A DNA stretch of 64,000 nucleotides from an uncultured Dysosmobacter sp. (GTDB lineage: Bacteria > Bacillota > Clostridia > Oscillospirales > Oscillospiraceae): the NCBI RefSeq assembly GCF_947631165.1, contig NZ_CANRKH010000001.1, positions 62,001-126,000 of the forward strand, given 5' to 3'. Made by a program: the position numbers and the translations under genes. The notes beneath the pieces were generated by a model. The model worked only from the letters and a program-made list of their open reading frames with translations, ran no database searches and had not been told where the DNA came from. Numbering within the stretch: the stretch's first letter is position 1; each line of letters starts with the position of its first letter. This document shows, piece by piece, positions 4,969-47,524 of the stretch.

Positions 4969-6078
4969 TTACCTCCCATAGAAAAACGCGTCGCACTTCA
5001 GCATCCCGTTGTACAGCTTCCGCTTCTTGTCGGCAGGGCGGCCAAAGGCCCGTTCAAATTCCGTGTGGGAGCTGAGGACGATGACCCGCCACTTGGGAGA
5101 CAGGGCCCGAAGGGCGTGTCCGAATGTTCGGTACAGGTCCTCCGCCTCCTTCTTCTCCAGCAGACGCTCACCGTAGGGTGGATTGGTCACCAGCTGGCCG
5201 TATTCGCTGTCCCGGTGGAATTTCCCGGCGTCCGCCGCTTCGAAGCGGACGCAGTCCTCCACGCCTGCCAGCTCCGCGTTGTGGCGGGCCAGCTCCACCG
5301 CGGCGGGATCGATGTCGCCGCCCCAGATGTCGTAAGTCCCATGGAACTCCCGGTCCATGGCTTCGTCGGCGGCGTCCAGCCACAGTTTGCTGTCCATGTT
5401 CTTCCACTTTTGGGCGGAAAAGCTGCGGTCCAGGCCCGGGGCGCGGTTCTTGGCGATGAGCGCCGCCTCGATGGGGATTGTCCCGCTGCCGCAGAAGGGG
5501 TCGCAGAAGGGGTCCCGGCCCCGGTAGCGGGACAGGAGCACCAGGGCCGCCGCCAGGGTCTCCCGCAGGGGTGCGCCCATGTTCCGCGCCCGATAGCCCC
5601 GCTTGTAAAGGCCCTCGCCGGAGGTGTCCAGATACAGCGTGGCCACGTCCTTGATGATGGCGAATTGGATCTGATAGCGGCTGCCGCTCTCCGGCAGGGT
5701 CTCACAGCCGTAGACCCGCCCCAGCCGCTGGGCCGACGCTTTTTTCACGATGGCCTGACAGGCGGGGACGGAGTGGAGTGTGGAATTCAGAGAGTAGCCC
5801 TTCACCGGAAATTCGCCGTCCCGGGGGATGTAGTCCTCCCAGGGCAGGGCCAGCACACCCTGGAACAGGGCCTCAAAGTCCTTGGCGGGAAAACTGCCCA
5901 GCTCCATCAGGACCCGGGCGCCGCAGCGCAGGTTGATGTTCAGCCGGGCGATGTCCGCCATGGTGCCCTCACAGTGGACCCGGCCATTCTCCGCCCGGAC
6001 GTTTTGCAATTGCAGGCGCTTCATCTCATCCGCCACCAGCGCTTCCAGCCCGAACAGACAGGGGACCGTCAGGATCAT
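4969..6078 (-). CDS. THUMP-domain class I SAM RNA methyltransferase (RlmL/YpsC-like)
   Basis: 369 residues from the ATG at 6078, chosen because AAGGAGG lies 8 bases upstream; the open frame extends 23 codons further but lacks a ribosome site. Seen: a THUMP-like N-terminal half, then DPFCGSGTIPIEAAL (SAM motif I, about residue 190) and TNPPYGERL (catalytic NPPY motif). Known: this family makes N2-methylguanosine in 23S rRNA. Inferred target is therefore 23S rRNA; tRNA-modifying relatives share the layout. Confidence 0.88.
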   Translation of the reverse strand: MILTVPCLFGLEALVADEMKRLQLQNVRAENGRVHCEGTMADIARLNINLRCGARVLMELGSFPAKDFEALFQGVLALPWEDYIPRDGEFPVKGYSLNSTLHSVPACQAIVKKASAQRLGRVYGCETLPESGSRYQIQFAIIKDVATLYLDTSGEGLYKRGYRARNMGAPLRETLAAALVLLSRYRGRDPFCDPFCGSGTIPIEAALIAKNRAPGLDRSFSAQKWKNMDSKLWLDAADEAMDREFHGTYDIWGGDIDPAAVELARHNAELAGVEDCVRFEAADAGKFHRDSEYGQLVTNPPYGERLLEKKEAEDLYRTFGHALRALSPKWRVIVLSSHTEFERAFGRPADKKRKLYNGMLKCDAFFYGR

Positions 6079-7521: not shown

Positions 7522-8465
7522 TGAATTTAGGAACAATCGCGGTCATCATTCTGGTGATCCTGCTGCTGATCCTCATTGTCAGCAACATCGTGGTGGTCCA
7601 GCAGTCCCGGGCCTATGTGGTAGAGCGCCTGGGTGCGTTCCGGGCGGTCTGGAACGTGGGATTGCACCTAAAGATCCCGTTTATCGAGCGTATCGCGAAA
7701 AAGGTGTCTCTGAAGGAACAGGTGGCGGATTTCGCCCCCCAGCCCGTGATCACCAAGGATAACGTCACCATGCAGATCGACACCGTCATCTATTTTCAGA
7801 TCACGGACCCCAAGCTCTATACCTACGGCGTGGAGCATCCCATGAACGCCATCGAGAACCTGACCGCCACCACGCTCCGCAATATCATCGGCGACATGGA
7901 GCTGGACCAGTCCCTCACCAGCCGTGACATCATCAACTCTCGGATGCGGGCCATCCTGGACGAGGCCACAGACCCCTGGGGCATCAAGGTCAACCGTGTC
8001 GAGCTGAAGAACATCATCCCGCCCAAGGAGATCCAGAACGCCATGGAGAAGCAGATGAAAGCGGAGCGGGAGCGCCGCGAGTCCATCCTCCAGGCCGAGG
8101 GTACCAAGCAGTCCCAGATCCTGGTGGCTGAGGGTGAGAAGCAGTCCGCCATCCTGAAGGCAGAGGCCGCCAAGGAGGCTGCCATCAAGCGGGCCGAGGG
8201 CGAGAAGGAGGCCCGGATCATGGCCGCCGACGCCGAGGCACAGGCCATCATGAAGGTGCAGCAGGCCCTGGCTGACTCTCTGAAGCTTCTGAACGCCGCC
8301 GCCCCCAATGACCAGGTGGTAAAGCTGAAGGCTCTGGAGGCCATGCAGAAGGTGGCGGACGGCAAGGCCACCAAGATCATCATCCCCAGCGAACTGCAGG
8401 GTCTGGCGGGGCTCGCCGCCAGCGCGAAGGCCGTGTTCGAGAGTGAGGACCCCAAAGCAGAGTAA
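7521..8465 (+). CDS. SPFH/Band 7 (stomatin/paraslipin-like) membrane protein
   Basis: 314 residues: an N-terminal membrane helix (about 5-25), a Band 7 domain (about 25-190) and an Ala/Glu/Lys-rich coiled coil (about 190-270) with repeated AEG-K-AI units. Known: oligomeric scaffolds of membrane domains, often paired with NfeD and linked to protein quality control. The ATG overlaps the nfeD stop (TAATG), so translation is coupled. A terminator follows at once. Confidence 0.92.
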   Translation: MNLGTIAVIILVILLLILIVSNIVVVQQSRAYVVERLGAFRAVWNVGLHLKIPFIERIAKKVSLKEQVADFAPQPVITKDNVTMQIDTVIYFQITDPKLYTYGVEHPMNAIENLTATTLRNIIGDMELDQSLTSRDIINSRMRAILDEATDPWGIKVNRVELKNIIPPKEIQNAMEKQMKAERERRESILQAEGTKQSQILVAEGEKQSAILKAEAAKEAAIKRAEGEKEARIMAADAEAQAIMKVQQALADSLKLLNAAAPNDQVVKLKALEAMQKVADGKATKIIIPSELQGLAGLAASAKAVFESEDPKAE

Positions 8466-8507: not shown

Positions 8508-9075
8508 AGCAGCTCCTTCGCCTCAGCAGCGCCCGCATCTCCTCCACACCCTTTTCCTGAGAGGAGATGATGGTGCACAAAATAGGCACCAGCTCTGGGC
8601 AGACGCCGTATCGCAGAGCGTTTTTTGCCATATGGATAGCCCCTTCATGATGGGGGATCATCTCCCTCATGAAATCCGCCGCGATGTCGCTGACCTCCGC
8701 CGCCCCGCCCATCTCCCGGAACATCGTTCCGTAGATCAGGTCCATCCGCCGCTGGTAAAGCGCCAGATCTCCCGGTGGGCTTTCCAGCGCAGCGCAGCGA
8801 TGCAGGGCCGCCCGCATGGCGGCGATGCCTTGAGTCTGCTCCGTAATGATGCCCTCCGCGATGCGCCGCAGCGCACAGCCGGTGATATGGGGCAGAGCGT
8901 TCCGGCTCATTTCAATAGCCGCCTGGTGGTGGGGGATCATCTGAACGATGAAGTTGTGGGAGATGCTGTCCGTCAGTTCCGCGCCAGTCATGGCGCCGAT
9001 CATATCGTCCAGGATCTGGTAAAAGCGAAGCAGATAGCTCTTTGTCTGCTCCGGCAGGACACACGCAGTCCGCAT
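8506..9075 (-). CDS. DUF305 family protein
   Basis: 189 residues from ATG 9075, chosen for AAGGAGG eight bases upstream; the open frame runs 21 codons further without a ribosome site. Seen twice: the DUF305 signature FxxxMIPHHxxAIxMxxxAL (near residues 45 and 140), with paired His residues typical of a ferritin-like four-helix metal-binding fold. No export signal. Function of the family is unsettled; metal handling is often suggested. Confidence 0.85.
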   Translation of the reverse strand: MRTACVLPEQTKSYLLRFYQILDDMIGAMTGAELTDSISHNFIVQMIPHHQAAIEMSRNALPHITGCALRRIAEGIITEQTQGIAAMRAALHRCAALESPPGDLALYQRRMDLIYGTMFREMGGAAEVSDIAADFMREMIPHHEGAIHMAKNALRYGVCPELVPILCTIISSQEKGVEEMRALLRRRSC

Positions 9076-9377: not shown

Positions 9378-10519
9378 TTTTAGAACGTCTGTATTATCTG
9401 CGCCCGGTCAGGCCGCGGCCAGCTCCTCCTCGAACAGAGCCGCCGACGATTTCCACCCCAGCAGTTTCCTCGGATAGTGGTTTACCCAGTGTTCCGCCGC
9501 CGCCACCTGTTCCTTCGTCACCTCGTCAAAGTTGGTCCCCTTCGGGAAGAACCGGCGGATAAGCCTGTTCATATTCTCATTACTGCCCCGCTCGTAGGCG
9601 GAATAGGGATGGCAGAAGAAAACGATGGTCCTCTTGCCCTTCCGCCGGTGGGCGATTTCGATTCCTTCAAAGTCCTGGAACTCGCAGCCGTTGTCCACCG
9701 TGATGCTCTTGAACAGAGTATAGAACAGCCGCCCGAACTTCCGCTCCAGCCGGTTGATGGCCTTGACCACGCTGGCCGCGGTGTGGTCCTCCAGCAGCAT
9801 GACGATTCCCATGCGGGTCCTCCGCTCCGTCAGCACCAGCAGCGTTTTCTTGGACCCCTTGCACCCCATGATGCTGTCCATCTCCCAGTGGCCGAACTGC
9901 TCCCGCCGCCCGATTTCCCGCGGGCGCTTCTCGATGCTGTTGCCGCGGGCCGCGCGGGCCGCCTTTTCCCCGTCCCGCTTTTTCCGGTGCCGCTTCCCCT
10001 TGTCGTGCAGGTGGGAGGCGTCCAGCACCAGGAACACGTCCCCCCGGTAGATGTAGTTGTACAGCGTCGTCTCGCAGATTTCCGTGTCGTAGACCTCGCC
10101 GTTGTTTCGGATTTCCGCCAGGGCCGCGCCGGGGGAGAAGTGCTGCACGGCGATAAGCTCCTCCAGCCGTCGGGCAAGGGCGTGGTCATGCCCGATTTTC
10201 AGGTCCGGCCCCTTCGCCGCCAGGAACTCCTTGTACTTCCGCTGCGCCTGTTCCGGGCTGTACTTCACTACAAACTCATAATCCGTCGTCATTTGAACAC
10301 ATTTCCCCCGCTCGATTTCATAGTAGATGGACCGGAGGCATTTCCCCAGCGCGTCCGCTATGACCGGCTTCGGGATTCCCTTTTTCAGCATCCGCTCCAG
10401 CGTCAGCCGCTGGTCCCAGGAAAAGTGTGTTGCTCCCTTGTGATTCATGGTGGCACCCCCTTTTTCCAGTAATATAAATTGGAATAATCGGGAATGTCAA
10501 TCGTTCATCCGTTCTAAAA
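9378..10519. mobile_element. Possible IS30-type insertion sequence bounded by short inverted repeats
   Basis: TTTTAGAACG at 9378-9387 recurs inverted at 10510-10519, giving a 1142-bp unit around the transposase, the right size for IS30. Pairing beyond 10 bp is poor and I see no target duplication, so this boundary is tentative. Confidence 0.35.
9408..10448 (-). CDS. IS30-family transposase
   Basis: 346 residues. N-terminal HTH_38-type helix-turn-helix (about 8-48), a second DNA-binding region, then the DDE catalytic core: Asp191 in HWEMDSIMG, Asp252 in TVDNGCEF and Glu291 in RGSNENMNR, with the family-typical FPKGTNF afterwards. Known: IS30 enzymes cut and join via (IR)2 intermediates and like palindromic targets. 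It lies 160 bp inside the left prophage end. It could be a separate insertion sequence (short inverted repeats at 9378 and 10510) or the phage's own recombinase. Confidence 0.93.
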   Translation of the reverse strand: MNHKGATHFSWDQRLTLERMLKKGIPKPVIADALGKCLRSIYYEIERGKCVQMTTDYEFVVKYSPEQAQRKYKEFLAAKGPDLKIGHDHALARRLEELIAVQHFSPGAALAEIRNNGEVYDTEICETTLYNYIYRGDVFLVLDASHLHDKGKRHRKKRDGEKAARAARGNSIEKRPREIGRREQFGHWEMDSIMGCKGSKKTLLVLTERRTRMGIVMLLEDHTAASVVKAINRLERKFGRLFYTLFKSITVDNGCEFQDFEGIEIAHRRKGKRTIVFFCHPYSAYERGSNENMNRLIRRFFPKGTNFDEVTKEQVAAAEHWVNHYPRKLLGWKSSAALFEEELAAA

Positions 10520-14506: not shown

Positions 14507-15147
14507 TCCTCGGCCTCCGTCCAGCCGTAGACGCCCGGCTCCCACACGTTGGCGTCAACGTCGCTGGTCCAGTGTTGGCCCTTGTGGCTCACCTTGTCCC
14601 CCTGGTTGTAGGCGTCGTGCGCGCCGATGGGCTGCACCCAGGCGGGCCACTCCTCCGCCGGGTCCGCGATTTTGGTCCAGAGGCTGGCCGTCTTGTCCGG
14701 CGTCCAGTCCACCTGCGAGGTGTGGTCCTGGACGCACCGGTAAAGCTCGCCGTTGTACTGGCGGATGTTGCCCTGCTTGTAGTCCACCGGGTAGGCCCAG
14801 GGAGAAAACAGGTCCGTGTGCTCTCCGGCGGTGGTGTCGTCGATGCTCCCCGCCTCCGCCATGGTGACAAAGGCGATTCCCGCGGCGGTGTTTACCGCCT
14901 TGACCTGCTCCTTCACCGGCCCCGTCCGGTCCTCCGTCCGGTAGTGCCGGTCGATTTCATACCAGTCATAGCAGTTGCCCTCCGCGTCGTCGGCGCTGTT
15001 GAGCTTCCGCACCACCCGGAAATGGTCCGTGATGGTCTGGTCCGGGTAGATGTGCTCCACCTCCCGGTAGCCGGTCAGGTCCGTGTGGTGGCTCCCCTTG
15101 GTTTTGAGGACTTCCTTCTCTCCCTCTGTGCCAAATACATACTCCAT
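14503..15147 (-). CDS. Tail-associated protein with carbohydrate-binding-like C-terminal repeats
   Basis: 214 residues. The C-terminal half carries two CBM5/12-like motifs: YKQGNIRQYNGELYRCVQDH and then AYNQGDKVSHKGQHWTSDVD with WEPGVYGW, the pattern of small chitin-binding modules common in tail proteins. Its first 73 bases overlap the end of the reverse transcriptase gene in another frame. Likely a baseplate or fibre accessory that binds sugars; an alternative is a fibre chaperone. Confidence 0.7.
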   Translation of the reverse strand: MEYVFGTEGEKEVLKTKGSHHTDLTGYREVEHIYPDQTITDHFRVVRKLNSADDAEGNCYDWYEIDRHYRTEDRTGPVKEQVKAVNTAAGIAFVTMAEAGSIDDTTAGEHTDLFSPWAYPVDYKQGNIRQYNGELYRCVQDHTSQVDWTPDKTASLWTKIADPAEEWPAWVQPIGAHDAYNQGDKVSHKGQHWTSDVDANVWEPGVYGWTEAEE

Positions 15148-16274
15148 GTCATTTCCCCCTTTTTACTGTTTTCCCGGACGATTCTCTTTAGCTCCCGCTG
15201 GATGCGCTCGCCTCGGAAAATGGCCCGGTATAGGTTGGTGTTATTACAGTGTTTGAGCTGCCCCAGCTTTGAAATGAGACTGTGCGCCGTCCCTGGCAGA
15301 ATCCGCTTCCCGGCGTCCCGCCGCTTCCGATACCGTGCCACGGCCTTTTTGATGCGGTGGAGGTTGTGCTTCCGGGGCAGGGTGTAGCCCCGCCCGTACC
15401 GGTAGCCCACGGCGTCCGGCATCCGCCGCCGCTCTCGCTCCACGCCGTTGCGCGGGGCCTCCAGCTTCTCCGGCTTCCTGCCCTTCGGCACCGTCCTGAA
15501 TATCTGCCAGTCGCCTTTTAGCCGCAGCTGGTGAGCGTTCAGCCAGTTCTCCATGAGCGTTTTCAGCTTCCGCAGCTTCCGCTTGTTCGGCCCCAGAATC
15601 GTCAGGTTGTCCATGTACCGCACGTAATGGGCCGCAAATCCGCTCTGCCGGATAAGCTGGTCCAGCGGCTGGAGGACGGTGTTTGCGAACCACTGGGACG
15701 TGTAGGCCCCTATCATCACGCCGTCCTTGACGATTCTCCAGATAAGGTCCAGCACCCGCCGGTCCTTGATAAGCTGCCGCATCCGCGCCATGACCACCTC
15801 CGGCTTCAAGCTCATGTAGAAGTGGTAGATGTCGCCGGTCAGCTCGTACTTGGTGCCTTTCGGGTCCTTCACCATCCACCGCTCGATTGCCTGCCGCCCG
15901 TGGTGCGGGCCGCGGCCCCGGATGCTCCCGCAGCAGTACGGGTCCATCCCTCGCATGAAGATGGGCTGGAGTATCTGGACCAGCGCGTGGTGTATGTATT
16001 GGTCCGGCCACTGGGCCGGTTCGCTCACCGTTCTTTGCTTCCGGGCGCTTGGGTCCCATCTCTGCGTCACCTTGGGCGGCTTCTGCTCAAAGCCCGTCAG
16101 GATGATGTTCCGCAGGTCCTTGACCCGCTCCTGCTTCGTCTCCTCCACCCAGGCCGTGCAGGCGTTGGGCCGGTGGTGACTGTGCCAGTGGTGCGAGGCG
16201 TTCACCTCGTTGATTGCCAGCAGTAGGTTTTCATCTGAAATGAGCCGTTCAAACAGGTGTCCTACCCTGTGCAT
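15075..16274 (-). CDS. Reverse transcriptase of a diversity-generating retroelement
   Basis: 399 residues. Seen: RT motif A GDIYHFYMS (Asp148), the region-4 motif IGAYTSQ (188-194; DGR RTs have GxxxSQ where group II intron RTs have a different pattern), and the active-site box YMDN at 220-223, where YxDD is usual. No maturase or endonuclease domain. Known: DGR RTs copy template RNA with errors at adenines, and the product replaces the variable repeat. Supported by an adjacent template repeat (16474-16612) and a matching variable repeat in the fibre gene. A Shine-Dalgarno AAGGAGG lies 13 bases before the ATG. Asn223 could weaken metal binding, yet the repeats show past activity. Confidence 0.93.
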   Translation of the reverse strand: MHRVGHLFERLISDENLLLAINEVNASHHWHSHHRPNACTAWVEETKQERVKDLRNIILTGFEQKPPKVTQRWDPSARKQRTVSEPAQWPDQYIHHALVQILQPIFMRGMDPYCCGSIRGRGPHHGRQAIERWMVKDPKGTKYELTGDIYHFYMSLKPEVVMARMRQLIKDRRVLDLIWRIVKDGVMIGAYTSQWFANTVLQPLDQLIRQSGFAAHYVRYMDNLTILGPNKRKLRKLKTLMENWLNAHQLRLKGDWQIFRTVPKGRKPEKLEAPRNGVERERRRMPDAVGYRYGRGYTLPRKHNLHRIKKAVARYRKRRDAGKRILPGTAHSLISKLGQLKHCNNTNLYRAIFRGERIQRELKRIVRENSKKGEMTWSMYLAQRERRKSSKPRGATTRT

Positions 16275-16473
16275 AGGGATTTGTGCTCCTCCTTTTAGCT
16301 GTACGGACTTTCTCCCCGCGCCGGTTTCCCGGCGGGTACTCGCCCGCTCCCTTGTAGCTTATCTTCACCGTGGGGTGCGCGATTATCTGTGCCGTGAATA
16401 ATTGAGGATGGTTAGCAAGTCCCACGCAGTTCCCGCCCTTCCCGGTTGGGAGGGGCGGAGCGACGCCGAAGGT

Positions 16474-16612
16474 GGCGGGAGCCGATGTTGCTGCTGGTGT
16501 TGGAGGCCGTGTTGTAGTTCACGTAGAACAGGCCGTAGTTGCCGTTCTGGTTGTAGTTGCCGCCAACGTAGAGGCACGGGTTCGAGGCGTTGAAGTTCCA
16601 GTTGTCGCACGA
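16474..16612 (-). repeat. DGR template repeat (TR)
   Basis: 139 bp, non-coding, between the fibre gene and the RT gene. It aligns without gaps to 16838-16976 with 15 mismatches, and on the coding strand every mismatch is an A in this copy. If read in the fibre frame it is rich in Asn (AAC) codons, as usual for templates because AAY gives wide variation. An open frame covering it (16412-16717) has no coding support. Confidence 0.97.
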
Positions 16613-16721
16613 CGGCCCGACCCAAAACATCGGTACTGCACAGATAACCCCGACCGCGCCAGGGGCTTCCTTCCCGGCCCCGTGGCCGGGGACCCCTGTT
16701 TTTCGCGCGGATTTCAAAATT

Positions 16722-16749
16722 CCGCCCGGCGCGGTCCCACGCCGGGCGG
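16722..16749 (-). terminator. Hairpin between the fibre gene and the template repeat
   Basis: A perfect 10-bp stem (16722-16731 with 16740-16749) followed on the minus strand by AATTTT. It may end the fibre transcript and separate it from a TR-RT transcript; the T-run is short. Confidence 0.55.
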
Positions 16750-16782
16750 TCCGTTATATCATGTTTTTTCCATGCAAAGGGC

Positions 16783-16828
16783 GGGGGCTGCGGCCCCCTC
16801 CCTCTGCACTCCCTCCCCCATTAGGGGA
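16783..16828 (-). repeat. Two hairpins just downstream of the variable repeat
   Basis: Stem 16812-16817 with 16823-16828 (6 bp, holding the fibre stop codon) and stem 16783-16788 with 16793-16798 (6 bp, 4-nt loop). In the best-studied DGR a hairpin or cruciform a few bases after the variable repeat helps target homing; these sit in the matching place. No proof of function. Confidence 0.5.
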
Positions 16829-19733
16829 GTTCCTGGAGGCGGGAGCCGATGTTGCTGCTGGTGTAGGAGGCCGAGTTGAAGTGCACGTAGAACAGGCCGT
16901 AGTCGCCGTACTGGCTGCAGTAGCCGCCAACGCAGAGGCACGGGAACGAGGCGTTGAAGTACCAGCGGTCGCACGAATAGGTGCTCTCGCTTCCGCTTGC
17001 CTCTGTCGGAATGAAGATGGGGAATCCGCCCGCCGACGTGACGGTGAACGCGCTCGGCCAGCCGCTGGACGGCTTTCCCGCCAGGGTCCCGCCCGCGGTG
17101 TCGGAGAAGTTGGCCGGATTCAGGATGATGTTCAGGCCGTTGCCGTCGTAGTAGCAGCCGTCGCACCAATCGTAGCAGTTGTCCCACAGCCCTTCGATGT
17201 TCCTGTACTGCGTCCCGCCGTAGCTGTCCCGGCTGTTCTGCGTGGTCCCGGTGTGATACCCCATGTTGTCCGTGTAGCCCATGTTGAACACGGCGGAGCT
17301 GCTGGAACTCGTCAGGGAACATCCCTTGCCGATGACCTTCTGGCTGTTCCAATCGGCAAACTCCACGATATACAGCAGCCAGATGGTGAACCGCGTTGCG
17401 AAGTCCAGCTGGGAGTAGCCCGCGCCCAGCGTCTTGATGCCCTGCCGGAACGCATCCCTGGTCTTGCTCACCTGCGGGGCCACGCCCGTCTTGCTTTTCC
17501 AGTCGCTGGCACAGTGATAGCGGCCCACGTAGATAGCGTCCCGCTCGCCCTTGCCGTCCTTGCGGTCCATGTGGGCAGGAGAGACGGAATAGCCGTCCTC
17601 CTTCTCCGCCGCGATTCTGATTTGCAGGCCCTTCCCGTTCTGCTCCAGCTTGTACCAGAACTTCGGGATTTTCACCATCTGCCCGCCGGTCCTGGCCTCG
17701 ACGGTCATTCCCGCCCACGGCTGGAGGGTGTCGAACGGGCTGCTGCCCGCCGTCCCATTGTTCACGTGGGGCGTCGGGTCGGTGAAATTCTTGGCGGCGT
17801 CCGTCCGGGTCCACTTGGTCCCGCTGTTCCCGTCCCAGGTCACGCCGTAGATTTTCGGCTCGTACACGTTCACGCTGACCTTCTTGGTCGCGCCGTTGTA
17901 CTTGGTGGTCTGCGCCAGGCTGATAGTGACCTGCGTATCACCGGCGGAAGCGCCGGAAATCGTCACGACCTTTTCCGCCGCCGAGGCCGTGGCCGTGCCG
18001 GGCGCGTCGGAGGTGGCGGACACGGCCCCGTCGCTGTCCGTGGTCACGTTGATTTTCACGTTGGCCCCCACTTTCAGCTTCACACTGCTGTCCGGGTTCA
18101 GGGTAAAGGTCGGATTCTTCCGCGTGACGTTCACGGTCAGCTTCACTTCCGCGTCGGCGTAGTTCTTCGCGCCCTTGCTGGAGATGGTCACGACCGCGTT
18201 GCCCTGTCCCGCGCCGGTGATGGTGACTTTCTTCTGCGCCGTGTCCGTGCTCACGGTGGCGAAAAGTTGCTGGCTGGATTCCGCCGAGATGTCGGCGTCG
18301 CTGTTGGTGGTCACAGTGACCTCCACCTGGTCGCCCACGTGGATGTCCTGCGCCGTGCTGGGCGAGATGGAGAGGGTGTTCGCCGCCTTGGCGATATTCC
18401 ACTGGACGGACTTGGCCCCCGTGTCGCCGCCCGGCCACTGATAGTTGTCCTTGGGGGTGAAGGAGGTGGAGTATTCCCCGGCGTCCCGCTGCTTCGTCTC
18501 CGTCTTGGTCAGCTTGTCCTCGGAGTAGTCGTTCCACTCCGGGGCCTGCTCCTCGCCGCTGTAGGTCAGCGGGGTTTTCACGCTGGGGGTGCTGGCAATC
18601 GTGGCCCGCTGGATGGTCCACTCGACTTCCTTCTCCTTGGCGGTCTTATCCGCCCAGGTGTAATCCCCCTTGGGGGTGAAGTACGCCTTGTACGTCCCTG
18701 CGTTGGTCTCGCCCTGAAACTCGGTCGCCGGGGTCTTTCCGTCCCCGTAGGTAACGTCCATCATCTCCTCGGAGAAGTTGTTCCAGGTCGGCTTCTGCTT
18801 ATCGCCGCTGTAGGTCAGCGCGGCGGCCTGGGACGGCACCACGGAGATAGTGTTCTGCACCGCGGCGATAGCCTCCGCCGCGCCGTCGGCCACCTTCTTT
18901 GCCTCCTCGGCGGTTTTCTTCACGCTGTCCAGCGTGTCCCAGAGGCCACTTTTCCGGTCAACCTTTTCCCAGACGTAGCTCCCTTCCTGCTCCTTGGTGC
19001 ATACCCACTCCTGGCCGGTCTGCAGGTTGAGGTAGTGCTGGCCCACCTTGCCCTCGGTCTCCGCCGTCGGGTCCTCGTTCCCGGTCAGCGTGGGATAGCC
19101 GTTCAGCGCCTTCTCCGCCGCGGCGATTCTGGCGGACAGCGCCGGGTGCGCCTCCGGGTCCTGGTTGTGCTCCTCGATGTCCGCGGCGATAGCCGCCTTG
19201 TGAGCGTCCTTGTCCTTGCTGTGCTCGTCGATGGCGTCCTGGATGGCCCCCACCGTGGCGATTCCCGCCGTGGAGATGCTCACCTCCAGCCGGTCCCCGT
19301 CGGTGACGGTCAGCACCGCGTACAGCTTGAAGCTGTAAAGCTGCTCGCTCTCCGCCGGGATGGTCACGCCGCAGTTGCCGCTCTCGTCCGGCTCGTCCTC
19401 CACGGTCAGCAGGATTTTCTCCTCGCCCTCCGGCTCGCCGCCCGAAGTGTCGCCCACCTGGGCGTAGATGTTGACCCGCTCCAGCTTGTAGGCTTCCTGA
19501 TTCCCGATGCTGGTCACTTGGATGCACACGGTCACGGTGTTGCCCGCCCTGGTCACGCTCTCGATGGTCAGAGGGTGGTCCCTGCCGCCCGGCTCCGGCG
19601 TTCCGGGGTCCCCGTCCGCCGTGGTCCCGTAGGCCGAACTGATTTTCAGTCTCCGGCCCGCCGCGAACTCGGTCAGCATATCCTGGCCGGATTCCGGCAC
19701 GGTAGCTTTGTTCCAGCGTTTCGTGCTTGCCAT
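16821..19733 (-). CDS. Tail-fibre/receptor-binding protein with Ig-like domains and DGR-variable lectin-like tip
   Basis: 970 residues. Residues about 1-270 form the fibre base, with a collar-type start MASTKRWNKATVPESG and a helical region. About 300-480 holds two MBG/Ig-like repeats (ALTYSG-x-KP-W-N then TYSGEEQAPEWNDYS). About 480-630 has two Big-type modules. About 640-970 is a C-type-lectin (formylglycine-enzyme-like) domain, typical of DGR targets, with the variable repeat at 920-966 ending four residues before the stop. Known role: host recognition by phages. Inferred: Ig modules extend the tip and the lectin fold displays about 13 variable residues. Confidence 0.92.
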   Translation of the reverse strand: MASTKRWNKATVPESGQDMLTEFAAGRRLKISSAYGTTADGDPGTPEPGGRDHPLTIESVTRAGNTVTVCIQVTSIGNQEAYKLERVNIYAQVGDTSGGEPEGEEKILLTVEDEPDESGNCGVTIPAESEQLYSFKLYAVLTVTDGDRLEVSISTAGIATVGAIQDAIDEHSKDKDAHKAAIAADIEEHNQDPEAHPALSARIAAAEKALNGYPTLTGNEDPTAETEGKVGQHYLNLQTGQEWVCTKEQEGSYVWEKVDRKSGLWDTLDSVKKTAEEAKKVADGAAEAIAAVQNTISVVPSQAAALTYSGDKQKPTWNNFSEEMMDVTYGDGKTPATEFQGETNAGTYKAYFTPKGDYTWADKTAKEKEVEWTIQRATIASTPSVKTPLTYSGEEQAPEWNDYSEDKLTKTETKQRDAGEYSTSFTPKDNYQWPGGDTGAKSVQWNIAKAANTLSISPSTAQDIHVGDQVEVTVTTNSDADISAESSQQLFATVSTDTAQKKVTITGAGQGNAVVTISSKGAKNYADAEVKLTVNVTRKNPTFTLNPDSSVKLKVGANVKINVTTDSDGAVSATSDAPGTATASAAEKVVTISGASAGDTQVTISLAQTTKYNGATKKVSVNVYEPKIYGVTWDGNSGTKWTRTDAAKNFTDPTPHVNNGTAGSSPFDTLQPWAGMTVEARTGGQMVKIPKFWYKLEQNGKGLQIRIAAEKEDGYSVSPAHMDRKDGKGERDAIYVGRYHCASDWKSKTGVAPQVSKTRDAFRQGIKTLGAGYSQLDFATRFTIWLLYIVEFADWNSQKVIGKGCSLTSSSSSAVFNMGYTDNMGYHTGTTQNSRDSYGGTQYRNIEGLWDNCYDWCDGCYYDGNGLNIILNPANFSDTAGGTLAGKPSSGWPSAFTVTSAGGFPIFIPTEASGSESTYSCDRWYFNASFPCLCVGGYCSQYGDYGLFYVHFNSASYTSSNIGSRLQELP
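16838..16976 (-). repeat. DGR variable repeat (VR)
   Basis: 139 bp encoding residues about 920-966 of the fibre protein. The 15 differences from the template change 13 residues, nearly all Asn or Tyr in the template (for example Asn to Arg, Tyr, Phe, Ser, Asp, His and Tyr to Cys). The 3' end, SSNIGSR, is unchanged and GC-rich, like the initiation-of-homing segment of other DGRs. Confidence 0.97.
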
Positions 19734-42602: not shown

Positions 42603-42631
42603 TTGACGCCGCCAAAATCGCCCGCTATCAT
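42603..42631 (+). promoter_or_regulatory. Promoter of the rightward phage block
   Basis: TTGACG (42603-42608), 17-bp spacer, TATCAT (42626-42631), about 75 bp before the first small gene at 42706. A GC hairpin (42559-42580) lies just upstream. Confidence 0.7.
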
Positions 42632-43062: not shown

Positions 43063-43260
43063 ATGGAAACCATGCGTTTGATTGGCGACAAGCTCCGCGA
43101 TAGAAATTATAACGGCATCACCGTTGACCGCACCTACTTCGGCCCGGAGTGGTGCAGGTCCCACGGCTACAGCATCACCCGCAGAGTGCAGGACGAAAGC
43201 GGCCAGCAATACGACATCTGGGAAAAGCCCGGTTATAAAGCCGCCATCCCCGTCCGCTAA
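43063..43260 (+). CDS. Small phage protein, 65 aa
   Basis: Start METMRLIGDKLRDRN, with AGGAGGAG upstream; the open frame continues 5' through the inverted repeats without support. Sequence TYFGPEWCRSHGYSITRRVQ and GQQYDIWEKPGYKAAIPV suggests a small beta-rich fold. The stop codon abuts the first intergenic repeat. Function unknown. Confidence 0.7.
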   Translation: METMRLIGDKLRDRNYNGITVDRTYFGPEWCRSHGYSITRRVQDESGQQYDIWEKPGYKAAIPVR

Positions 43261-43261
43261 A

Positions 43262-43334
43262 GCCCGCAAGGCCGACGGCATCCGCCGCCGCTGGTGCAAG
43301 TCCAGCCGCCCCGCCGGGGCGGGCGCTCATGGGC
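43262..43334 (+). repeat. Intergenic structured repeat, copy 1 of 6
   Basis: 73 nt, starting one base after the TAA of the gene before. Three hairpins in order: CGGC-AUCC-GCCG, GCUGG-UGCAAGU-CCAGC and CGCCCC-GCC-GGGGCG, with a possible outer GCCC/GGGC pair. The next gene starts 57 nt after it. See the finding on this family. Confidence 0.85.
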
Positions 43335-43391
43335 ACAGCCCCAAAAATCAAAATGACCCGCCGCCCAGGGTGAAGGGCAGAAAGGGAATCC

Positions 43392-44426
43392 ATGAACAAC
43401 TCCAAGATTATTGCCAACGCGCTCCAGGCCCGCGGAATGACCGACGACCAGCTGCAGCAGCTCCTGACCGCGTACCACGGGGACCTCCCCTTCCACACCA
43501 TCCCGGAATGGTCCCGCCGCGGCTACCACGTGAAGCCCGACGCCGAGCCGCTGTTCTCCTGCTACCTGTGGAAGCACACCAACAAGCCCAGCCGGGCCGC
43601 CGTCGAGGCCGCCGAGGAGGCCGGGGAGGACATCCCCGAAAACAGCCCGCACTTTTACCAGAAGCTGTCCTACATCTACAGCTTTTCCCAGGTTGAGAAG
43701 AACGCCCCCGCCGCCGACCTTGAGACCATCAAGGCCCAGCTGCAGAACCTGCCCGGCGTGGTCCTGACGGTCAAGGGAGAAAAGACCGGCGCGCCGGTGG
43801 TCTGGCTGACCGGCGACACGGAAGCCCACGCCGACGCCATCAAGGCCGCGGGCGGCATCTGGAGCCGCAAAAAATCCGCCTACTGGGTGAAGCCCAGCGC
43901 GGCGGCCCCGGCGGACAAGCCCGCCGCCCCCGCTCCCCAGGTGGAGCCGGAGAAGCCCGCCGCCCCGGCCCCCTGCACGGCCCTGGTCCCCGTGTACAAG
44001 TTCGATTTGCTCCCGGCCCCGGACCCCCAGCCGGGGCGGGAGGAGGCCCACAAAAAGCCCGCCCGCGTTTATGAGACCTGGACCATCCACCCCGGCAAGC
44101 GCACCCCGCAGCCCTGGAAAAAGTGCGAGTTCGCCACCGTCCGCCGCAACGAAAAGACCCAGCAGCCGGAAGCCTGCAAGATGACCGGTTACACCGACGG
44201 CATTTATAACTATTACAGCGCCGGGTCCCTCTGGTTTGCCATTCATCCCGTGTATGGTCTGGCCGTCTCCACCGCCCACAGCCGCAAGGCCGCCCAGGCC
44301 GACGCCATGAAGAACGCCGACAAGGTGAAGCGCGTTGAAGCCCAGGCCGCCCAGGATGACCGGATGCAGAAATACGCGGCCCTGGTCAAGTCCGCCAACG
44401 ACGGCGACAACGTGACCCTGTTCTAA
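43392..44426 (+). CDS. Phage protein, 344 aa, unknown function (two-domain)
   Basis: The N-terminal half (residues 1-115: SYIYSFSQVEKNA, FSCYLWKHTNKPSR) is conserved-looking, with a CYLWKHTNKP stretch. Residues about 125-165 hold VVWLTGDTEAHADAIKAAGG and WSRKKSAYWVKP, a fold also hinted at in the next gene's GFRWSPREGAW. A Pro/Ala-rich linker (about 170-195) leads to a C-terminal domain with KPARVYETWTIHPGKRTPQP. Comparison with anti-restriction ArdC-like proteins is possible but weak. Confidence 0.65.
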   Translation: MNNSKIIANALQARGMTDDQLQQLLTAYHGDLPFHTIPEWSRRGYHVKPDAEPLFSCYLWKHTNKPSRAAVEAAEEAGEDIPENSPHFYQKLSYIYSFSQVEKNAPAADLETIKAQLQNLPGVVLTVKGEKTGAPVVWLTGDTEAHADAIKAAGGIWSRKKSAYWVKPSAAAPADKPAAPAPQVEPEKPAAPAPCTALVPVYKFDLLPAPDPQPGREEAHKKPARVYETWTIHPGKRTPQPWKKCEFATVRRNEKTQQPEACKMTGYTDGIYNYYSAGSLWFAIHPVYGLAVSTAHSRKAAQADAMKNADKVKRVEAQAAQDDRMQKYAALVKSANDGDNVTLF

Positions 44427-44433
44427 TCCCCCA

Positions 44434-44508
44434 GCCCGCAAGGCCGACGGCATCCGCCGCCGCTGGTGCAAGTCCAGCCGCCCCCCGCCGGGGCGGGCGC
44501 TCATGGGC
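44434..44508 (+). repeat. Intergenic structured repeat, copy 2 of 6
   Basis: 75 nt, eight bases after the stop. Same first and second hairpins as copy 1; third-hairpin loop lengthened to CCGCC with its 6-bp stem kept. Followed by the A-rich stretch and GGAGGT of the gene at 44552. Confidence 0.85.
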
Positions 44509-44551
44509 ACAAAACCGCCGCCCACAAAATCACAAAACGGAGGTACACAAA

Positions 44552-45610
44552 ATGTCTATCGGAAGGAATGACTACGAGGAGCGCCGCGAGGCCCGCGTTG
44601 ACCGCCTGGAGCAGCGCGCCGCCAAGGCGCAGGCCGAGAGCGCCGCCGCCAGCCGCGCCGCCCACGCCATCATGGACCATATCCCGCCGGGCCAGCCTAT
44701 TTTGGTAGGCCACCACAGCGAAGCCCACCACCGCCGCGACCTTGCCAAAATCGACCAGCAGATGAACAAATCCGTTCAGGCCAGTAAAAAGGCGGATTAC
44801 TACGCCAGCCGGGCCGCCTCCGCCGCCAGCAACAACACCATCAGCAGCGACGACCCCGCCGCCCTGGAGAAGCTGCAGGCCAAGCTCGCCGCCCTCCAGG
44901 CCCAGCAGGAGCGCGACAAGGCTATGAACGCCCACTACAGGAAGCACGGCACCATGAAGGGATTCCCCGACATGGACGACGACCGCGCCGCCAAAATCGA
45001 CGCCGAGCTTGCCAAACAGGACGCCAACCCCTACAGCAGCGGGAGACACCTCCCGGTCCCGTCCTACGTCCTCTCCAACCGCAACGCCACCATCAACAGC
45101 GTGAAAAAGCGCATGGAAGCCCTCCGCCGCGTGGACGAGATGGAACACTTTGAAGTCGAGTTTGACGGCGGGCAAATCGTGACCAATGAGGACGTGAACC
45201 GGGTACAAATCCTTTTCGACGACAAGCCCGACGAGGAGACCCGGCGCAAGCTGAAAGCAAACGGTTTCCGCTGGTCCCCCCGTGAAGGTGCCTGGCAGGC
45301 CCCCCGGACCCTGGGCTATCTCTACCGCGCCGAGTATCTGATGGGCGTTCCCAAGTCCGGCCCCTATGACAAAAAGCCCGACGACACAGAACCGGCCACC
45401 ACAGAACCGGCCAGCGCGGAAGATGACGACTTTTCCGACATCGACCCCGCCGCCGTCCGGGCGGAGCTGGAGCGCCGCGGCGACAACTCGCCCTTCGTCC
45501 AGCGCGTCATGGAGGACGTGGAGCGAATCGCCGCCAGGGAGGCCGCCGAGGAGGCCGCCGAGGACCTGCCCGCCGCCGCCAACGGCCAGCTGCTTTTCCC
45601 CCAGGAGTAA
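44552..45610 (+). CDS. DUF3560-family protein
   Basis: 352 residues. A long coiled coil rich in Arg/Ala (residues 1-60: RREARVDRLEQRAAKAQAES), the HH-rich link PILVGHHSEAHHRRDLAKID, then a beta domain ending RKLKANGFRWSPREGAWQAP, the DUF3560 pattern found in phages and plasmids. Acidic tail. Function not established. Confidence 0.8.
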   Translation: MSIGRNDYEERREARVDRLEQRAAKAQAESAAASRAAHAIMDHIPPGQPILVGHHSEAHHRRDLAKIDQQMNKSVQASKKADYYASRAASAASNNTISSDDPAALEKLQAKLAALQAQQERDKAMNAHYRKHGTMKGFPDMDDDRAAKIDAELAKQDANPYSSGRHLPVPSYVLSNRNATINSVKKRMEALRRVDEMEHFEVEFDGGQIVTNEDVNRVQILFDDKPDEETRRKLKANGFRWSPREGAWQAPRTLGYLYRAEYLMGVPKSGPYDKKPDDTEPATTEPASAEDDDFSDIDPAAVRAELERRGDNSPFVQRVMEDVERIAAREAAEEAAEDLPAAANGQLLFPQE

Positions 45611-45618
45611 CACAAAAC

Positions 45619-45693
45619 GCCCGCAAGGCCGACGGCATCCGCCGCCGCTGGTGCAAGTCCAGCCGCCCCCGACCGGGGCGGGCGCTCATGGGC
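45619..45693 (+). repeat. Intergenic structured repeat, copy 3 of 6
   Basis: 75 nt, eight bases after the stop. Third-hairpin loop CGACC with stem CGCCCC/GGGGCG kept; hairpins one and two as in copy 1. Confidence 0.85.
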
Positions 45694-45728
45694 ACAAAAC
45701 CCAAAACCACAAAACGGAGGTCATCACA

Positions 45729-46172
45729 ATGGCAGCGATTGAGAGAAAAATTCCCGGCACCTTTTCCAAGGTCCCCGGCGGCTATGCCCAGCAGACCGGC
45801 CCGAACACACAAATCTTCATCCCGGATATGTGCGCTTCCAGCTTCATCCCCGAAACCGGCGAGCTTAACGGCTACGCCCCCGACTACGAGGCCATGGAGG
45901 CCGCCAAGGCCCCCGCCGCCGTGGCCGACAAGCCCGGCGTGTACGCCTACTACTACGAGACCCAGCACGCCCCGACCGGCTGCGACTTCTCCGCCGAGCT
46001 GGCCTACTACGGGAAGCACTACTTCCTCCGGCCCCTGCATGACGGGCTTCCCAAGCTCCACGGGCGCGGCATCACCTACGACGAGAAGGACGGCAGCTAC
46101 ACGGTCACAAAACGCGCTTACGAACAAATCAAAGCGCAGTACAAAATCAGCCTCGAAATGTGCTTCGATTGA
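45729..46172 (+). CDS. Phage protein, 147 aa, unknown function
   Basis: Start set at ATG 45729 with CGGAGGT ten bases upstream; a longer open frame upstream runs through the repeat and a shadow. GVYAYYYETQHAPTGCDFSA and HYFLRPLHDGLPKLHGRGIT look like a compact alpha/beta fold. No family recognised. Confidence 0.7.
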   Translation: MAAIERKIPGTFSKVPGGYAQQTGPNTQIFIPDMCASSFIPETGELNGYAPDYEAMEAAKAPAAVADKPGVYAYYYETQHAPTGCDFSAELAYYGKHYFLRPLHDGLPKLHGRGITYDEKDGSYTVTKRAYEQIKAQYKISLEMCFD

Positions 46173-46173
46173 C

Positions 46174-46247
46174 CCGCAAGGCCGACGGCCCCAGGCCGCC
46201 GCTGGTGCAAGTCCAGCCGCCCTCGGCGGGGGCGGGCGCTCATGGGC
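46174..46247 (+). repeat. Intergenic structured repeat, copy 4 of 6
   Basis: About 74-76 nt, starting in the stop codon (TGACCCGC). Hairpin one is CGGCC-CCA-GGCCG instead of CGGC-AUCC-GCCG, with both sides changed so pairing stays. Third hairpin has CGCCCU/GGGGCG with a U-G pair. Confidence 0.85.
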
Positions 46248-46283
46248 CACAAAACCCAAAACCACAAAACGGAGGGCAAAAAC

Positions 46284-46664
46284 ATGAAGCTGGATAGAGA
46301 ATTTATCCGGGACCTGAAAAAGCAGGCCAACGGCGACGGCAGCAGGGCGGCCCGGTTCGCTTTCCTGGATGTTGCAAGGGACGCCTGCAAAGAGCTTTCC
46401 ACTTCCAAAGTCAAGAGCATTTTCTGGGACGTGGTGAAAAAGTACGGTCGCATCCCCGTCGCCGTCTGCGTGGCCGCCACCGTTGCAGCCAGAGAGCCGG
46501 ACCGTTTCAAGCCCGCAACCGTCCGATGGGCCAGGGAGGTGCTTTCCCTCTACACAAACAAGCCCCCGCACCTGGACAGCCTGTATATCGACGACAATTT
46601 GAGGCCGGACAGCATCGAGGTGTACGCCTGGGACCTTATCCGGTGCTCCATTGAGGAGTTCTAA
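46284..46664 (+). CDS. Phage protein, 126 aa, helical
   Basis: Starts MKLDREFIRDLKKQANGDGS; all-helical, with FAFLDVARDACKELSTSKVK and VAVCVAATVAAREPDRFKPA. GGAGGG lies eight bases before the ATG. No family recognised. Confidence 0.7.
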   Translation: MKLDREFIRDLKKQANGDGSRAARFAFLDVARDACKELSTSKVKSIFWDVVKKYGRIPVAVCVAATVAAREPDRFKPATVRWAREVLSLYTNKPPHLDSLYIDDNLRPDSIEVYAWDLIRCSIEEF

Positions 46665-46665
46665 A

Positions 46666-46738
46666 GCCCGCAAGGCCGACGGCATCCGCCGCCGCTGGTG
46701 CAAGTCCAGCCGCCCCGCCGGGGCGGGCGCTCATGGGC
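46666..46738 (+). repeat. Intergenic structured repeat, copy 5 of 6
   Basis: 73 nt, identical to copy 1 over its whole length, starting one to two bases after the TAA. That two copies 3.4 kb apart are identical points to recent copying or strong constraint. Confidence 0.85.
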
Positions 46739-46779
46739 CACAAAACCGCCCACAAAATCACAAAACGGAGGTACACAAA

Positions 46780-46956
46780 ATGACCGGCGGGAAAAACCTG
46801 TACTTTTCTTCTTTTCTCGGAGCGATAGAGCTTTTCACAATCACCGACTACGGCGACATCATCACGCTGGGCGCATATATTGACACGCCCGAAGTGAGGC
46901 AGGCCCTCGTTTCCCTCTACGGGGCCGCCGAAGTGACCGGTTGGAAGAAAGTCTGA
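46780..46956 (+). CDS. Small phage protein, 58 aa
   Basis: ATG 46780 with CGGAGGT upstream. LYFSSFLGAIELFTITDYGD and IDTPEVRQALVSLYGAAEVT; beta-alpha character. Unknown function. Confidence 0.65.
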   Translation: MTGGKNLYFSSFLGAIELFTITDYGDIITLGAYIDTPEVRQALVSLYGAAEVTGWKKV

Positions 46957-46977
46957 CCGCAAAACGGAGGTGGAGAA

Positions 46978-47181
46978 GTGGAGAAAAAGCGCGGCACCAG
47001 GCGGTGCGTACACTGTCCGAATTTTCACAGCGACGCAAGGACCAAGCATTTCCCGGAGTGCATCGGCATCTGCGGCCTTTATGGAAAACTTGTGAAGGAC
47101 ACGCTATGCGGGTGCAAAACCGACCGCAGCGGAATCGTTACGCTGTTGAATTTTGGAGGCGAATCCCCCAAAAAGCAATAA
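46978..47181 (+). CDS. Small Cys-rich protein, 67 aa (GTG start)
   Basis: GTG 46978 with CGGAGGT nine bases upstream, 21 bases after the previous stop. CVHCPNF, C-x-G-x-C-G (PECIGICGLYG) and CGCKTD give seven Cys, a likely zinc-binding fold. Not preceded by the intergenic repeat, so probably translated with the gene before it. Confidence 0.65.
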   Translation: MEKKRGTRRCVHCPNFHSDARTKHFPECIGICGLYGKLVKDTLCGCKTDRSGIVTLLNFGGESPKKQ

Positions 47182-47256
47182 GCCCGCAAGGCCGACGGCC
47201 CCAGGCCGCCGCTGGTGCAAGTCCAGCCGCCCCGACCGGGGCGGGCGCTCATGGGC
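47182..47256 (+). repeat. Intergenic structured repeat, copy 6 of 6
   Basis: 75 nt, directly after the TAA. Combines the hairpin-one variant of copy 4 (CGGCC-CCA-GGCCG) with a third loop GACC, so the parts vary independently. Confidence 0.85.
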
Positions 47257-47313
47257 CACAAAACCCAAAACGCACGCGAACGCACAAAAAACACACGCAG
47301 GGAGGTACACAAA

Positions 47314-47475
47314 ATGCGTTATCAAATTCTCTACAGCAAGCGCGGCTGGCCGCTCACCGTATGGATGGACGACGAGGCCGCCGACCGCAAAATGGCCGCC
47401 GGTCTGCGAAAGGCCGGTTACTCCGTCACCGTATGGGCGCACACTGCGGAGGGCGCGCACAAAACAGATATTTGA
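47314..47475 (+). CDS. Small phage protein, 53 aa
   Basis: ATG 47314 with GGAGGT upstream. MRYQILYSKRGWPLTVWMDD and AAGLRKAGYSVTVWAHTAEG suggest a small ferredoxin-like alpha/beta fold. Unknown function. Confidence 0.65.
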   Translation: MRYQILYSKRGWPLTVWMDDEAADRKMAAGLRKAGYSVTVWAHTAEGAHKTDI

Positions 47476-47495: not shown

Positions 47496-47524
47496 TTGAA
47501 AACGGCACGGAGCCGTGCTATAAT
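47496..47524 (+). promoter_or_regulatory. Strong promoter with a palindromic operator as its spacer
   Basis: TTGAAA (47496-47501), 17-bp spacer, TATAAT (47519-47524). The spacer contains GCACGG-AG-CCGTGC (47505-47518), so a protein bound there would block RNA polymerase. The half sites match the two inverted repeats at 42975-43022. It drives the Arc-like gene at 47556. Confidence 0.85.

Follow-up and report, generated by a model that had tools for sequence, protein, structure and literature searches.

Twister-sister ribozymes stand at the gene boundaries of a prophage operon in an uncultured Dysosmobacter and probably divide its RNA into mostly single-gene mRNAs

Introduction

Why should one structured element recur between the consecutive genes of a phage operon? 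This question was raised by a stretch of 64,000 nucleotides (nt) from an uncultured Dysosmobacter sp. (NCBI RefSeq assembly GCF_947631165.1, contig NZ_CANRKH010000001.1, positions 62,001 to 126,000, forward strand), hereafter the window, in which six nearly identical elements lie between small prophage genes. The original prediction, made from the letters alone, regarded them as a repeated RNA device serving as a processing site, a translation insulator or a protein-binding tag. In the present study, we found that the elements are twister-sister ribozymes, which probably cut the operon RNA into segments that mostly carry one gene each.

The six repeats are twister-sister ribozymes

Weinberg et al. 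2015 is said to be the reference for the twister-sister ribozyme. When the window was scanned with Rfam 15, all six repeats matched the model of this class (RF02681) at 73.4-81.7 bits, more than twice the curated cut-off of 34 bits, and every match covered model positions 1-81. These results indicated that the repeats are four-way-junction twister-sister ribozymes, a known class. The six-copy family was real: it was recovered independently, with all copies in one orientation. The earlier statement that no named family fits was wrong. The copies, with the closing helix P1 included in their spans, are as follows (bits refer to RF02681).

43262..43334, plus strand: copy 1, 78.0 bits, predicted cleavage C43328/A43329
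44434..44508, plus strand: copy 2, 77.5 bits, predicted cleavage 44502/44503
45619..45693, plus strand: copy 3, 81.6 bits, predicted cleavage 45687/45688
46172..46247, plus strand: copy 4, 73.4 bits, predicted cleavage 46241/46242; CCA in the P3 loop, an A-C mismatch at the outer P1 pair, first base within the TGA of the preceding gene
46666..46738, plus strand: copy 5, 81.2 bits, predicted cleavage 46732/46733
47182..47256, plus strand: copy 6, 81.7 bits, predicted cleavage 47250/47251; P3 form as in copy 4

The predicted cleavage site is the C^A step of GCUC^AUGGG, and this C-A dinucleotide was present in all six copies; PMC5660989 gives the cleavage step of twister-sister as C62-A63. The core letters named in that source are G5, C6, A8, G9, the SL4 loop G29-C37, G59, C60, U61 and A63. 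After we transferred its crystal numbering onto the window letters, G5, C6, A8 and G9, then G29, U30, A33, A34, G35, U36 and C37, then G59, C60 and U61, and finally A63 were found in six of six copies. At position 36 the window copies have U, and relatives have either U or C. The changes G5A and A63U are reported in PMC5660989 to abolish activity, and the letters at both positions were invariant across a 38-row alignment. The six copies thus agreed with RF02681 in core letters, helices P1-P5 and C^A dinucleotide, and no difference was seen in the element. The ribozyme itself is ordinary; what is striking is its arrangement as a multi-copy array with copies set gene by gene.

The three hairpins of the original prediction corresponded to P3 (so that this is the four-way-junction form), P4 with its conserved loop and P5 with its free loop. 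That description overlooked the catalytic core as well as P1 (GCCC/GGGC) and P2, which close the junction. Unconstrained folding recovered the four-way junction in all six copies. A strong local fold was abandoned as evidence, since the folding energies were no better than those of dinucleotide shuffles (z -1.33 to +0.50).

Among 38 aligned copies, 96.9% of the base-pair cells paired, and both partners had changed in 11 of the 21 pairs. None of 500 shuffles attained any of five covariation measures, and pairing fell to 28-54% when the partner strand was slid by 1-3 columns. P2 was invariant in the alignment and hence uninformative on this point. The outer P1 pair was followed in 137 copies (134 found by pattern search and three from loci added later); it was Watson-Crick in 93 (A-U 50, G-C 34, C-G 8, U-A 1), G-U or U-G in 18 and unpaired in 26. 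Covariation, on which the original prediction had staked its reading, was thus present.

The ribozymes lie at gene boundaries

Boundary statistics were calculated for 134 distinct copies from 74 loci found with a degenerate DNA pattern. The pattern misses copies listed by our covariance model (for example in the loci L035, L066, L069, L114 and L121), and the 134 copies are therefore a pattern-defined subset in which divergent copies are under-counted. An open reading frame (ORF) stopped within 30 nt upstream of 121 of the 131 testable copies, compared with 231 of 1340 random places on the same strand. The gap to the upstream stop had a median of 4 nt and was below 10 nt in 110 of 129 copies, 31 of which had a negative gap, the stop overlapping the element. 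Downstream, at 20-80 nt, a start led by a Shine-Dalgarno sequence (SD) followed 99 of 132 copies, compared with 132 of 1340 random places and 6 of 130 copies on the opposite strand.

For the intervals between neighbouring model-found copies, an interval was counted as filled when an ORF started in the leader and stopped at the next copy. One ORF filled 66 of 80 intervals, 63 of these with an SD. The genes were called by simple rules rather than by a trained gene finder. An earlier count, based on pattern copies and a rule-based caller, gave one gene in 54 of 67 intervals, two in 6, three in 2, four in 1 and none in 4; it overlooked the 344-amino-acid (aa) window gene and a 342-aa gene in L026, and was superseded by 66/80. 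The leaders were rich in A and C (83% A+C in 103 leaders), compared with 64% in the 124 control stretches that precede other SD-led genes on the same contigs. Together, these results indicated that the copies follow gene boundaries, the second point on which the original prediction had been staked.

Layout of the operon in the window

The array operon (43063-47475, plus strand) points away from the terminase genes. For the six copies in turn, the stop codon of the gene ahead ends at 43260, 44426, 45610, 46172, 46664 and 47181, and the copy begins 1, 7, 8, -1, 1 and 0 nt after it; the next gene starts 57, 43, 35, 36, 41 and 57 nt past the 3' end of the copy. Both distances were as originally described. 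The GGAGG described there was found before five of the six starts, the leader after copy 1 having AAAGGG only. One ORF filled four of the five intervals between neighbouring copies. The parts of the region other than the ribozymes are listed below.

42603..42631, plus strand: promoter-like TTGACG-17-TATCAT ahead of the operon, consensus match only
43063..43260, plus strand: 65-aa gene preceding the first ribozyme; Pfam, PHROGs and NCBIfam gave no match at E 0.01
43335..43391, plus strand: leader of the 344-aa gene, after ribozyme 1, without GGAGG
43392..44426, plus strand: 344-aa gene, cluster C03, also in other arrays
44509..44551, plus strand: A/C-rich leader with GGAGG, from sequence
44552..45610, plus strand: 352-aa DUF3560 gene, PF12083, cluster C02
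45694..45728, plus strand: A/C-rich leader with GGAGG, from sequence
45729..46172, plus strand: 147-aa gene, cluster C01, all 15 members 147 aa
46248..46283, plus strand: A/C-rich leader with GGAGG, from sequence
46284..46664, plus strand: 126-aa gene, missing here in the related prophage L131
46739..46779, plus strand: A/C-rich leader with GGAGG, from sequence
46780..46956, plus strand: 58-aa gene, missing here in L131
46978..47181, plus strand: 67-aa gene, missing here in L131; not separated from the 58-aa gene by a ribozyme
47257..47313, plus strand: A/C-rich leader with GGAGG, from sequence
47314..47475, plus strand: 53-aa gene, last of the array, phrog_34845
47496..47524, plus strand: promoter-like TTGAAA-17-TATAAT just past the last array gene, consensus match only

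Pfam named one of the ten plus-strand proteins scanned from 43.0-48.0 kb (DUF3560), and NCBIfam named none of ten. The promoter-like site at 47496-47524 was near-consensus, with TG ahead of the second hexamer, and no RF02681 match was found beyond it in the window. Inside the array there were two plus-strand promoter-like sites (46834 and 46853), both within a gene. The region held five such sites, compared with 1.2 in shuffles, all of them consensus matches only.

A leaderless start on the 5'-hydroxyl (5'-OH) AUGGG end was considered and rejected: of the 106 copies for which a downstream gene was called, the AUG was in frame in 41, near the expected one third, and in frame with no intervening stop in 32. 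In the product of copy 4 (window 46242-46284), the AUG of 5'-OH-AUGGG is in frame with the next gene.

Cassettes are exchanged between arrays

Comparison of the window prophage with that of a same-genus genome (L131) revealed 96-99% identity in most long blocks and 89% over one 564-nt block. In L131, about 230 nt with a single 60-aa ORF take the place of window 46262-47182 and its three genes; the homology ends at one ribozyme (46261) and resumes at another (47183). A further break runs from 44516, just past ribozyme 2, to 45377 inside the DUF3560 gene. Three of the four breaks within the array lie at ribozymes. The first part of the DUF3560 gene (44516-45377) was strongly diverged, though the prophage was about 97% identical on both sides.

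Breakpoints were then collected from 22 array sequences, using matches of at least 250 nt with 80-99.5% identity, whose 196 ends were reduced to 93 positions. Of these, 57 lay inside a ribozyme or at most 20 nt from one (2000 random draws gave a mean of 14.8 and a maximum of 25). The count comes from array pairs that are not all separate cases: L124, L127, L128 and L130 represent a single locus, and L044/L083 and L060/L066 are near duplicates. Alignment ends are drawn to a ribozyme when both edges share one, and gene boundaries and ribozymes coincide; the test therefore shows cassette joints, not the cause of exchange.

RAGATH-5 occupies the same slot

An Rfam scan of 35 loci found ten copies of another RNA, RAGATH-5 (RF02685), in seven loci, always on the twister-sister strand.

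L026:1539-1594, twister-sister strand: RAGATH-5 (Rfam)
L034:6094-6143, 8188-8239 and 8679-8730, twister-sister strand: RAGATH-5 (Rfam)
L045:2197-2248, twister-sister strand: RAGATH-5 (Rfam)
L065:3031-3082 and 5320-5371, twister-sister strand: RAGATH-5 (Rfam)
L068:9162-9217, twister-sister strand: RAGATH-5 (Rfam)
L071:157-209, twister-sister strand: RAGATH-5 (Rfam)
L119:6722-6774, twister-sister strand: RAGATH-5 (Rfam)

Eight of the ten copies started 6-10 nt past an ORF stop (opposite strand, two of ten at 10 nt or less), and in eight an SD-led start followed after 30-62 nt (none of ten on the opposite strand). When RAGATH-5 copies were counted as boundaries too, 74 of 89 intervals held one ORF. 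Like twister-sister, RAGATH-5 takes the slot of stop, RNA, leader and start in the same arrays; unlike twister-sister, it has another sequence and model, and its self-cleavage is putative. In the account of PMC11061315, the RAGATH hammerhead variants, the hepatitis delta virus (HDV) variants and twister-sister are proven ribozymes, and the other 33 are of unknown function; the Rfam type line for RAGATH-5 nevertheless reads 'ribozyme'. A fold computed from the ten sequences had 6 pairs and no covariation, and was uninformative.

The two RNAs were found to replace each other in L052 and L068, which are collinear at 80.6% over 2147 nt. Two orthologous genes, encoding a DUF3560 protein (74% identical) and the next gene product (80%), have twister-sister between them in L052 (3371-3446) and RAGATH-5 in L068 (9162-9217), the leaders being similar; the swap of RNA class rests on this one clear orthologous pair. 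The exchange suggests that the two RNAs may share a common job, most simply self-cleavage. RAGATH-5 was predicted to be self-cleaving because it stands in for twister-sister between the same orthologous genes with a similar leader kept. A wider reading, in which phage operons would consist of interchangeable one-gene cassettes whose joints may be any fast self-cutting RNA, so that RAGATH-5 would be a self-cleaving ribozyme, seemed to us evenly balanced between right and wrong.

Prophage setting and occurrence

PHROGs matches identified the window as a prophage, with terminase, portal, protease, capsid, tail sheath and tape measure genes on the minus strand, which indicated a contractile-tailed prophage. 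A second, related prophage-like region of the same genome lies on another contig (L129:7487-7880, G000:C3), where two twister-sister copies flank a 68-aa gene. RF02681 was found in 4 of 61 genomes of the same genus, among 99 relatives searched, and in 6 of 394 genomes of the order at E 0.001, 4 of them above the cut-off; these counts include the own genome. Such sporadic occurrence is as expected of phages.

The survey was based on IMG/VR, GTDB contigs and genome sets, not on INPHARED (50,697 records), where blastn with one copy (window 43255-43345) gave no match. With the degenerate pattern, 43 stretches were retrieved from IMG/VR viral contigs and 53 from GTDB contigs; 16 of the 53 were judged by eye to be chance, having no core, and were excluded before every count, and the covariance model, run on 7 of these 16, gave no match. 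The model built here yielded 182 matches in 93 sources, duplicate contigs and cut copies included, and omitted the L025 copy, which RF02681 scores at 56.7 bits. The largest arrays had seven copies (L052) and six copies (L047, L066 and the window).

Other elements were observed in the same material. A diversity-generating retroelement occupies window 15078-16976 on the minus strand, with a reverse transcriptase at 15078-16274 (PF00078), a template repeat at 16471-16612 and a variable repeat at 16835-16976, at the end of a 970-aa tail protein; all 16 differences between the repeats fall at template adenines. An RT-18 RNA (RF03021) lies within it at 16289-16377. Near the lysis end of the prophage, 9411-10448 (minus strand) gave an integrase-core (rve) match of 27.3 bits, below the Pfam cut-off of 32.6. 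DUF3800-VIII RNA (RF03075) was found at L047:6919-6975 and L069:2942-3008, on the strand opposite to the twister-sister copies.

Proposed mechanism and alternatives

We consider it probable that the ribozymes cut the operon RNA into mostly single-gene mRNAs. One transcript would span the whole operon, and each ribozyme would fold once transcribed and cut itself between C and A of its cleavage motif. The products would be mRNAs of one gene, in one case two. Each would begin with a 5'-OH and a short, A/C-rich, SD-bearing leader, and its 3' end would be formed by a ribozyme body right behind the stop codon. Cutting would abolish translational coupling and the shared fate of neighbours, and each gene would thereby be self-contained and exchangeable without disturbing the others. 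The single transcript, the cleavage in the cell and its benefit are what we infer here. Segmentation is favoured because most products carry an SD leader and an open gene. The processing site in a polycistronic mRNA named by the original prediction was the right idea and can now be specified as a self-cleaving ribozyme. A precedent is described in PMC3088659, in which clustered hammerheads flank single prophage genes and three tandem sets were cleaved during in-vitro transcription.

Several observations weigh against such segmentation. The opposite-strand control for upstream stops was also high (61 of 133 copies), 14 of the 80 intervals lacked a single filling ORF, and some array gene boundaries have no ribozyme, for example window 46956/46978. 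Release of the SD by cleavage was not supported, the mean unpaired fraction in folding being 0.548 after and 0.515 before the cut, compared with 0.661 for shuffled leaders. In addition, the host genome encodes RNase J (634.6 bits), and the 5'-OH mRNA made by the glmS ribozyme is destroyed by RNase J1 in B. subtilis (PMC3997798).

This last observation also supports the main alternative, a decay switch, in which the 5'-OH would be the entry for RNase J and the short-lived mRNAs would tie expression to fresh transcription. The trimming of 5'-OH ends by 2 nt to a 5'-phosphate in B. subtilis (PMC11780869) is likewise in its favour. The SD leader and open gene that follow most copies (99/132; 63/80) fit a translated product instead, and the element abuts the upstream stop rather than the downstream start; we regard a decay switch as possible, though unlikely. 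The position at the upstream stop, which touches or overlaps P1, would also suit cutting timed by translation, in which a terminating ribosome would block folding so that the cut is made only when the upstream gene is untranslated. Tight packing by itself accounts for this distance, and such timing seemed improbable.

A further alternative places the function in the DNA: the copies would be joints, like integron attC sites or repeats for homologous recombination, that spread cassettes, with the ribozyme incidental. Cassette exchange does occur at the copies, and gene order varies, C02 standing before C01 in two arrays and after it in seven. The mean distance between copies (98 compared) was 0.095 within an array, 0.116 for another array with the same downstream gene, 0.140 with the same upstream gene and 0.137 otherwise, so that copies of one array were closer than unrelated ones. 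Against this, the nearest relative was at an unrelated position in another array for 52.5 of the 98 copies and in the same array for 15.5 (ties shared), which indicated that homogenisation within arrays is weak; moreover, paired changes preserve the RNA helices, the core is invariant, and the swap for an unrelated RNA at an orthologous boundary is unexpected of a DNA repeat. Integron attC core sites are of the GTTRRRY type; by reading, no GTT was found on either strand of the six copies, which speaks against attC sites. No tyrosine recombinase match was found among the window proteins scanned, which were part of the window ORFs. Joints acting mainly as DNA are very improbable.

Excision and circularisation, in which two ribozymes would free a one-gene RNA whose ends are rejoined, draws on the matching 5'-OH and cyclic-phosphate ends that flanking ribozymes of this chemistry leave. 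The host genome (94% complete) gave no match to RtcB, other ligases not having been searched for, and the hammerhead authors (PMC3088659) detected no spliced or circular products; this idea is hardly credible. The smallest weight of all falls to the first proposal of a translation insulator or tag, a structured RNA that does not cleave, since its stable fold and regular distance to the next start leave the full catalytic-family match, including residues whose change abolishes cleavage, without explanation: a passive insulator does not account for the conserved core, and a protein-binding tag is unnecessary.

Relation to known systems and significance

To our knowledge, the purpose of clustered phage ribozymes is still open. 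It was also left open in the account of PMC3088659, whose prophage hammerheads resemble the present arrays in that several ribozymes flank single phage genes or short blocks and were proposed, as are those here, to trim long phage transcripts to gene length. The hammerhead-type arrangement of several ribozymes in a prophage recurs in same-strand copies, 66 of 80 one-ORF intervals and a prophage identified by PHROGs. The present arrays differ in ribozyme class, in having up to seven copies per contig, and in that cassettes are exchanged at the copies. HDV-like theta ribozymes (PMC10879173) also cleave themselves, occur in gut phages and have a proposed role in processing phage RNA; they are described there as largely tied to tRNA 3' ends, whereas the twister-sister copies stand between protein genes. 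The glmS ribozyme (PMC3997798, PMC11780869) likewise cleaves itself within an mRNA and leaves a 5'-OH mRNA, and differs in being metabolite-dependent and in lying in the 5' untranslated region of a host gene. Twister-sister arrays were not met in the literature titles and abstract openings covered, which did not include Weinberg et al. 2015, and we do not claim that they are unreported.

The locus provides a natural experiment: two closely related prophages share an array and carry different cassettes, and one boundary has a swapped RNA class. It allows the segmentation of mRNA by ribozymes to be tested directly, and RAGATH-5 is a strong candidate for a further ribozyme class.

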